Below, in pieces: positions 35,978 through 36,810 of a DNA stretch of 52,813 nt (positions within the stretch are counted from its first letter, which is position 1; every line of letters starts with the position of its first letter). This DNA is from Bacillus sp. EB01 (GTDB lineage: Bacteria > Bacillota > Bacilli > Bacillales > Cytobacillaceae). Both the position numbers and the translations under genes were made by a program. The stretch is taken from assembly GCF_000613125.1 (NCBI RefSeq), contig NZ_HG964497.1, positions 2,216,886 to 2,269,698 on the forward strand, given 5' to 3'. Under the pieces are notes generated by a model. It was not told the origin of the DNA and did not search any database. It was given only the letters and a program-made list of their open reading frames with translations.

Positions 35978-36010
35978 ACTAAAACAAAAAGGCCCGGGAG
36001 ATCATCCCGG
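35978..36010 (-). terminator. Terminator of the sspF unit
   Basis: On the minus strand CCGGGA pairs with TCCCGG, followed by GCCTTTTTGTTTT. It lies 54 bp after the stop of the small ORF coupled to sspF, and 227 bp after the sspF stop itself. Confidence 0.8.
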
Positions 36011-36063
36011 ACTTGCCGCAGAGATTTGTTATTTTAAGTGCTCGAAGACGGTCTTTGCCGTAT

Positions 36064-36240
36064 TCAGGTGTCTCCTTTACCCGTTTTCGCAAACCAAACG
36101 GTTGCTGTTTCTTCAAGACGATGTTGAGTTACAGGAACGGTAGCCTCATCGTTCCGGCTTGAGACCATACGGCCCAGCCGTTTAAAACTGAGCCTGGCCG
36201 CTACAATCAGGTTTCCAAGTTTTCGAAGGGCAGGATTCAT
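36064..36240 (-). CDS. Unknown 58-aa basic protein, coupled to sspF
   Basis: I do not recognise this protein. Its ATG overlaps the sspF stop codon (ATGA), and AGGA lies about 6 bp upstream inside sspF, so translation would be coupled. The frame stays open for 58 codons and ends before the shared terminator. The N-terminal half is basic and partly amphipathic ([20 protein letters not shown], then RLGRMVSSR). The C-terminal half is mixed and contains [11 protein letters not shown]. Net charge is about +5, there are no cysteines and no membrane helix. Transcription from the sigma-G promoter of sspF would make it a forespore protein. It could still be a chance frame. Confidence 0.5.
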
Positions 36241-36416
36241 TGCCGATCCTGCAGAAGTTGCAGTTGAGCAAGTTCAATCGCGCGCTTGACCATATTTCCT
36301 GCATCACGCGCTCGTATACCGCCCCATCCTTCCTTCTCAACAACATCATAGAAACCAAGATCCTTTGCTAGTTCTTCTTTAAAACGGTCAGACATTACTC
36401 CCTTTCTTCTGGCCAT
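36237..36416 (-). CDS. sspF: Small acid-soluble spore protein SspF, alpha/beta type
   Basis: A 59-aa minor SASP relative. It begins [22 protein letters not shown] and ends with the DNA-binding SASP helix [19 protein letters not shown] (residues 32-50), close to B. subtilis SspF. It binds forespore DNA by family analogy. GGAGGGG lies 9 bp before the ATG and a sigma-G promoter lies upstream. It sits between veg and ispE as in B. subtilis. Its stop codon overlaps the start of a further small ORF, which is unusual. Confidence 0.95.
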
Positions 36417-36450: not shown

Positions 36451-36480
36451 TAGTATGCAAACCATTCCGTTTTTTCATCC
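36451..36480 (-). promoter_or_regulatory. Sigma-G promoter of sspF
   Basis: Minus strand GGATG-N18-CATACTA. The -10 matches CATNHTA fully, and the -35 has four of five matches to GHATR. It sits just after the veg terminator. Confidence 0.7.
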
Positions 36481-36546: not shown

Positions 36547-36810
36547 CTAGCTTAAAGCTGCTTGTCCTGCTGCTTCTTCATAGAAGGTAATTTCCACTGT
36601 TTCTGTAAGTACATCTGCATAGCTGTAAGATACCCGTTCAAATGCATTTTCTTCCTGGTCCAGTTCAATAACAAAAACTGAAGGATAAGTCTCCGCTAAA
36701 ATTCCGGAACGTTCAATGGTCTTTCTGCGGCCTCCGTTCGCTTTTAACAGAAGCCTTTTTCCCAGATTTGAATCCAGAGCCTTTTTGATATCGGCAAGTG
36801 TTTTTGGCAT
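36547..36810 (-). CDS. veg: Veg protein
   Basis: An 87-aa abundant protein linked in B. subtilis to biofilm gene control and spore germination. The family begins [30 protein letters not shown] and continues [20 protein letters not shown] with an SH3-like beta fold expected. I set the start at the ATG preceded by GAGGTG at 6 bp. An in-frame extension upstream runs through the promoter region and is not coding. Two strong tandem promoters precede it. Confidence 0.97.

Follow-up and report, generated by a model that had tools for sequence, protein, structure and literature searches.

A frame of 58 codons whose start overlaps the stop codon of sspF in Bacillus sp. EB01 is very probably a real protein gene, and among the genomes searched it occurs in one genus only. 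Codon comparison indicates that the frame is under purifying selection as a protein. We favour the explanation, with a probability of about one half, that its product belongs to the minor proteins of the forespore core, is made along with SspF and would bind nucleic acid through a basic helix.

Gene layout of the sspF locus

The window, which is the whole stretch of 52,813 nucleotides that was analysed, carries on its minus strand, in this order, veg, sspF, the 58-codon frame, a terminator-like hairpin and ispE. The features are as follows.

36547-36810 (range searched), minus strand: Veg gene, upstream of sspF, from a Veg match in profile searches
36476..36480, minus strand: sigma-G-like -35 element (GGATG), found by eye, 18 bases ahead of the -10 element
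36451..36457, minus strand: sigma-G-like -10 element (CATACTA), identical in 8 of 8 genus genomes
36237..36416, minus strand: sspF, minor alpha/beta-type SASP of 59 aa (Pfam SASP PF00269, E 1.1e-5)
36247..36250, minus strand: Shine-Dalgarno-like AGGA in the last codons of sspF, 6 bases ahead of the overlapping ATG
36064..36240, minus strand: genus-restricted gene, start ATG, 58-aa product, from the ORF listing, genus conservation and codon models
35992..36012, minus strand: terminator-like hairpin with a T run behind it, from a hairpin scan, beginning 51 bases past the ORF stop
from 35816, minus strand: ispE-like frame, downstream of the hairpin

An earlier note on this DNA had described an ATGA shared by the end of sspF and a second frame, and had this frame run for 58 codons and end before a terminator. 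Both are seen here, the ATG start and the sspF stop sharing a 4-base overlap (ATGA, 36237-36240, minus strand). The hairpin scan gave two such sites against a shuffle mean of 1.9, i.e., no excess over shuffles; in the hairpin behind the new gene, most pairs persist in 6 to 8 of the 8 genus genomes. The downstream frame is presumably ispE, judging by the KAPAKIN with which its product begins and by the gene order. Rfam at gathering scores returned two tRNAs and a 5S rRNA for the whole window and nothing at the new gene. Matches to sspF were found in all 61 relatives; within the genus, its start is apparently TTG in G001 and G004 (loci L023 and L027) and ATG in the other six members.

The frame is conserved and under purifying selection

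An overlapping frame stands behind sspF, in the same register, in all eight genus genomes examined, a sample in which G000 and G007 are nearly identical. The overlap reads ATGA in six and GTGA in two, and the products are 58, 58, 53, 67, 67, 67, 67, and 55 aa long. A protein search of the 61 relatives recovered all eight genus genomes, seven of them at an E of 4.9e-7 or better and G004 at 0.08.

The earlier note had suggested comparing this frame among related genomes by the ratio of synonymous to nonsynonymous changes, and the comparison, with the frame in 8 of 8 genus genomes and omega values of 0.22 to 0.33, came out in its favour. Pairwise dN/dS lay between 0.16 and 0.51 in 22 of 28 pairs, synonymous sites being saturated in the six pairs that gave no value. 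With codon models, the 28 N-terminal codons in eight genomes gave an omega of 0.22 (2dlnL against omega 1 of 45.9) and the full length in six genomes gave 0.33 (36.3). For the C-terminal part in six genomes, omega was 0.36 (13.5); fits with four genomes and with the seven without G005 gave 0.34 (24.6) and 0.30 (45.0), respectively. These likelihood gaps are approximate because the null fits were made on a kappa grid with the tree taken from the free fit and a protein-guided alignment. Over 25 codons that align without gaps across the eight genomes, the gene frame had no stops in 200 codons and an omega of 0.20 (2dlnL 49.4), while the other five frames had 12, 11, 5, 5, and 11 stops with omega values of 1.5, 5.6, 1.1, 0.35, and 4.3, respectively. 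The value of 0.35 (2dlnL 20.9) comes from the frame on the opposite strand that shares the third positions of the gene, a frame that itself has five stops.

The earlier note had also made the absence of stops and frameshifts in relatives a point on which the gene would stand or fall. The N-terminal and middle parts are free of them, but the C-terminal tail (AIRLK or similar), present in G001, G002, G003, and G006, is missing in the other four: a frame change removes it in G004, and a premature stop does so in G000, G007, and G005 (window 36027-36066, minus strand, and the same place in loci L021, L022, and L027). This loss in four of eight genomes suggests that the tail is dispensable.

Probable expression with sspF in the forespore

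The consensus for sigma-G promoters is GNATR-N18-CATNNTA. At the -35 place, read by eye, six of the eight genus genomes have ATG and two have ATC, and the first G is not always kept; the spacer, counted by eye, is 18 bases in seven genomes and 17 in G005. The sigma-G promoter assumed in the earlier note is supported by this promoter-like motif, with CATACTA in 8 of 8, and the placement in the forespore that went with it is a reading of this motif. A sigma-G-like promoter ahead of sspF makes forespore expression likely, and since the new gene would be coupled to sspF on one transcript, its product would be made in the forespore alongside SspF. We consider production in the forespore quite likely.

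We propose that a two-gene transcript is read from the sspF promoter and that ribosomes finishing sspF would restart at the overlapping ATGA or GTGA, with help from the Shine-Dalgarno-like bases in the last codons of sspF. The predicted pairing of the sspF end with the 16S tail has a mean of -4.6 in the genus (-3.0 to -6.6, n = 8) against -1.0 at the same place in 48 loci of other genera, although 3 of the 48 pair as strongly as the genus median; the genus is stronger by a one-sided Mann-Whitney test (p = 1e-4). This pairing fits restart by coupled ribosomes, as far as prediction goes.

Restriction to one genus

The genus group includes Bacillus sp. FJAT-27445, FJAT-27245, Neobacillus piezotolerans YLB-04, and N. 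notoginsengisoli JCM 30743. An IspE protein tree splits its eight genomes from seven outgroups with a support of 95. Eleven of 193 family genomes matched the product at E ≤ 0.1, namely, the eight of the genus and three weak ones (0.003 to 0.014) among the 185 non-genus genomes, and these three lie in or beside unrelated genes. The match to G048 in the search of 61 relatives also lies in or beside an unrelated gene, and for the other eight non-genus genomes matched in that search, a comparison of coordinates alone shows none that coincide with an sspF place. Among 397 genomes of the order at E ≤ 0.01, the genome of the window was the sole match; among 398 of the phylum at the same threshold, it was joined by one match (E 0.0097) inside a 561-aa frame. 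At these thresholds, no homologue appears outside the genus, although a very diverged one is possible. Since each genus genome gave a single match, no paralogue is seen.

The sspF loci of other genera were compared directly. From 53 non-genus genomes with sspF, 52 loci were taken (G056, at a contig end, was left out) and 48 were kept after four could not be parsed (L076, L084, L085, and L094). The earlier note knew of no such gene here in B. subtilis; at all 48 of these readable loci from other genera, the overlapping gene is absent. Their sspF stop is TAA in 36, TGA in 6, and TAG in 6, and a start codon stands at the overlap in two of the 48 (GTGA and TTGA), where the frames reach no more than 34 and 28 codons. 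Five loci (L056, L058, L059, L087, and L092) have frames of 40 to 81 codons that start 5 to 21 bases past the sspF stop and, by eye, do not resemble the new product. A crude terminator test fired 25 to 114 bases past the sspF stop in the 48 loci and at 234 to 246 bases in G000, G007, and G005; these distances are rough because in the remaining five genus genomes the test already responded within the frame. One relative, G047 (L049), has a transposase-looking open frame after sspF, from about 110 bases past its stop, and the ispE motif is absent from the stretch examined there.

Within the genus, the product is 30 to 43% identical to the window copy in six of seven relatives (97% in G007), while the IspE proteins of the same six are 84 to 91% identical to that of the window species, so the new gene evolves fast.

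Homology searches and origin

The earlier note took the frame for a gene of no known family. Purifying selection and the same frame in eight of eight genomes bear this out, and the window copy matches no Pfam family at E ≤ 1 and, likewise, none in NCBIfam. Searches with the other members and databases gave little more: one of eight members met an unnamed PHROGs family at E 0.016, and the only PDB sequence matched was that of a phospholipid-transporting ATPase (E 0.006), in which no stretch passes on its own. At 53 to 67 aa in the eight genomes, the products are of the size of minor SASPs, under about 100 aa. None of the eight matches the SASP profile (PF00269) at E ≤ 1, and by profile the product does not appear to belong to the alpha/beta-type SASPs. 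A comparison with SspF by hhalign gave a probability of 0.2%, and local scores between the two did not exceed shuffle level in any of the eight genomes (they are reached by 12.8% to 92.8% of shuffles), so an origin by duplication of sspF finds no support. When the eight genus regions were compared by blastn with the 48 outgroup regions, five matches of 12 to 37 bases were returned, all at E 0.095 or worse and none convincing. The open-licence literature on sspF and its neighbours, in the parts available to us, makes no mention of such a gene.

Features and predicted structure of the product

The first 27 residues carry a net charge of +5 to +7 in all eight genomes. M1, L8, A14, K20, and E43 (numbering of the window copy) are invariant, and LEE...W is found in seven, six of them with the full LEExxTxW (G001 lacks the T and G005 differs). 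The helical moment of the window copy, 0.52, is reached by 2.7% of shuffles, and that of G007 by 3.6%; in the other six (6.7% to 47%), amphipathicity is not significant at the 5% shuffle level. The description of the N-terminal half as basic and amphipathic in the earlier note therefore holds throughout for the charge and, for amphipathicity, in the window copy and G007 but not in the other six.

AlphaFold2, run with five sequences, predicts a helix over residues 3 to 24 in the FJAT-27445 protein and 3 to 27 in the window protein, with block pLDDT values of 72 to 81 over residues 1 to 20. The window model has an extra, doubtful helix at 45 to 53 (block pLDDT 55). Mean pLDDT values were 60.5 and 62.9, with pTM values of 0.27 and 0.30, and being so low they mean that the models say little beyond the N-terminal helix.

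Possible roles of the product

In the explanation that we favour, the basic N-terminal helix (about residues 3 to 25) would bind an acidic surface, most likely spore-core DNA or RNA, the region around LEE...W would serve as a short contact, and the variable tail would be dispensable. A role linked to nucleic acid or to the SASPs, taken on its own, is held tentatively, at somewhat under even odds. We rank a nucleic acid role in the core ahead of one at the membrane surface or with a single partner. A bolder version is doubtful: a new forespore nucleoid protein family, born on the genus stem, perhaps out of the untranslated sequence 3' of sspF, kept in proportion to SspF by coupling, and modifying the coating of spore DNA by SASPs.

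The N-terminal helix could instead lie on the inner forespore membrane, the product being a membrane-surface peptide. A helix is predicted and the window copy and G007 are amphipathic (moment 0.52, 2.7% of shuffles, and 3.6%, respectively), but the lack of significance at 5% in the other six genomes makes this rather unlikely; a membrane span is improbable as well, with the best 19-residue hydropathy mean at 0.46 to 1.21 across the eight.

We give about the same low standing to a product that binds one specific protein, such as SspF itself, a protease or a germination protein, and has no role with nucleic acid. That the gene is coupled to sspF in all eight genomes agrees with such a partner, and LEE...W, conserved in seven (with the T of LEExxTxW in six), could be the contact site; on the other hand, no partner can be named from the present data and the product changes fast, at 30 to 43% identity in six of seven relatives against 84 to 91% for IspE.

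It is very improbable that the frame is untranslated and open by chance, sspF simply having a long 3' untranslated region or a regulatory RNA here, given the purifying selection on it and its 0 stops against 5 to 12 in the other frames. Some observations do lean towards RNA. The C-terminal part tolerates frame changes, and TAAAATAACA (window 36027-36036, minus strand), shortly ahead of the hairpin, does not vary among the eight genomes even where it is noncoding: it ends the coding frame in four genomes, whereas the window copy stops before reaching it, so something besides the protein may keep it. RNAalifold gave 24 pairs, 7 of them changed on both sides and 5 of these outside the terminator hairpin, but the total covariation term of 0.1, from an alignment in which three rows miss their first bases, gives no net support for a structure.

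A SpoIISB-like antitoxin can practically be dismissed, as one of eight members touches PF14185 (E 0.027) but the other seven do not match it at E ≤ 1, the toxin family PF14171 matches five of the eight genomes (four over the cut-off) against eight with the new gene, and the combination of a PF14185 match with an adjoining SpoIISA was not found, the PF14171 gene of the window genome lying outside the window. That gene, of the SpoIISA family (G000:C1:2443931-2444701, PF14171 E 5.5e-20), belongs to a family that is patchy across the genus.

Comparison with known small spore genes and significance

The favoured forespore core protein would resemble several known systems. Minor SASPs are small forespore proteins, several of them with a narrow distribution (PMC3533761), and the sspN-tlp operon places another small gene behind its ssp gene (PMC9147052). 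As in these cases, the new gene is small, second after an ssp gene, and narrowly distributed, with expression expected in the forespore; unlike them, it lacks a SASP family match in Pfam or NCBIfam, is found in one genus only, and has its start overlapping the sspF stop. With SspF the product shares its small size, the predicted transcript, and the expected forespore location, but no sequence similarity (hhalign 0.2%, shuffle-level scores in 8 of 8).

Most taxonomically restricted Bacillus genes were traced to noncoding sequence in one study (PMC10003748). Compared with the genes described there, the new gene is likewise of genus level with no homologue found elsewhere, but it differs in being present in 8 of 8 genus genomes, tied to a conserved sporulation gene and under clear purifying selection, and in that the eight genus regions gave no convincing match to the 48 outgroup loci.

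In this lineage a conserved spore gene has gained a small coupled neighbour, with 48 readable loci of other genera lacking such an overlapping gene. Should the product act in the spore core, it would count as a new minor spore protein. In either case the locus is well suited to the study of gene birth, since the arrangement persists in neighbouring genera without the new gene.
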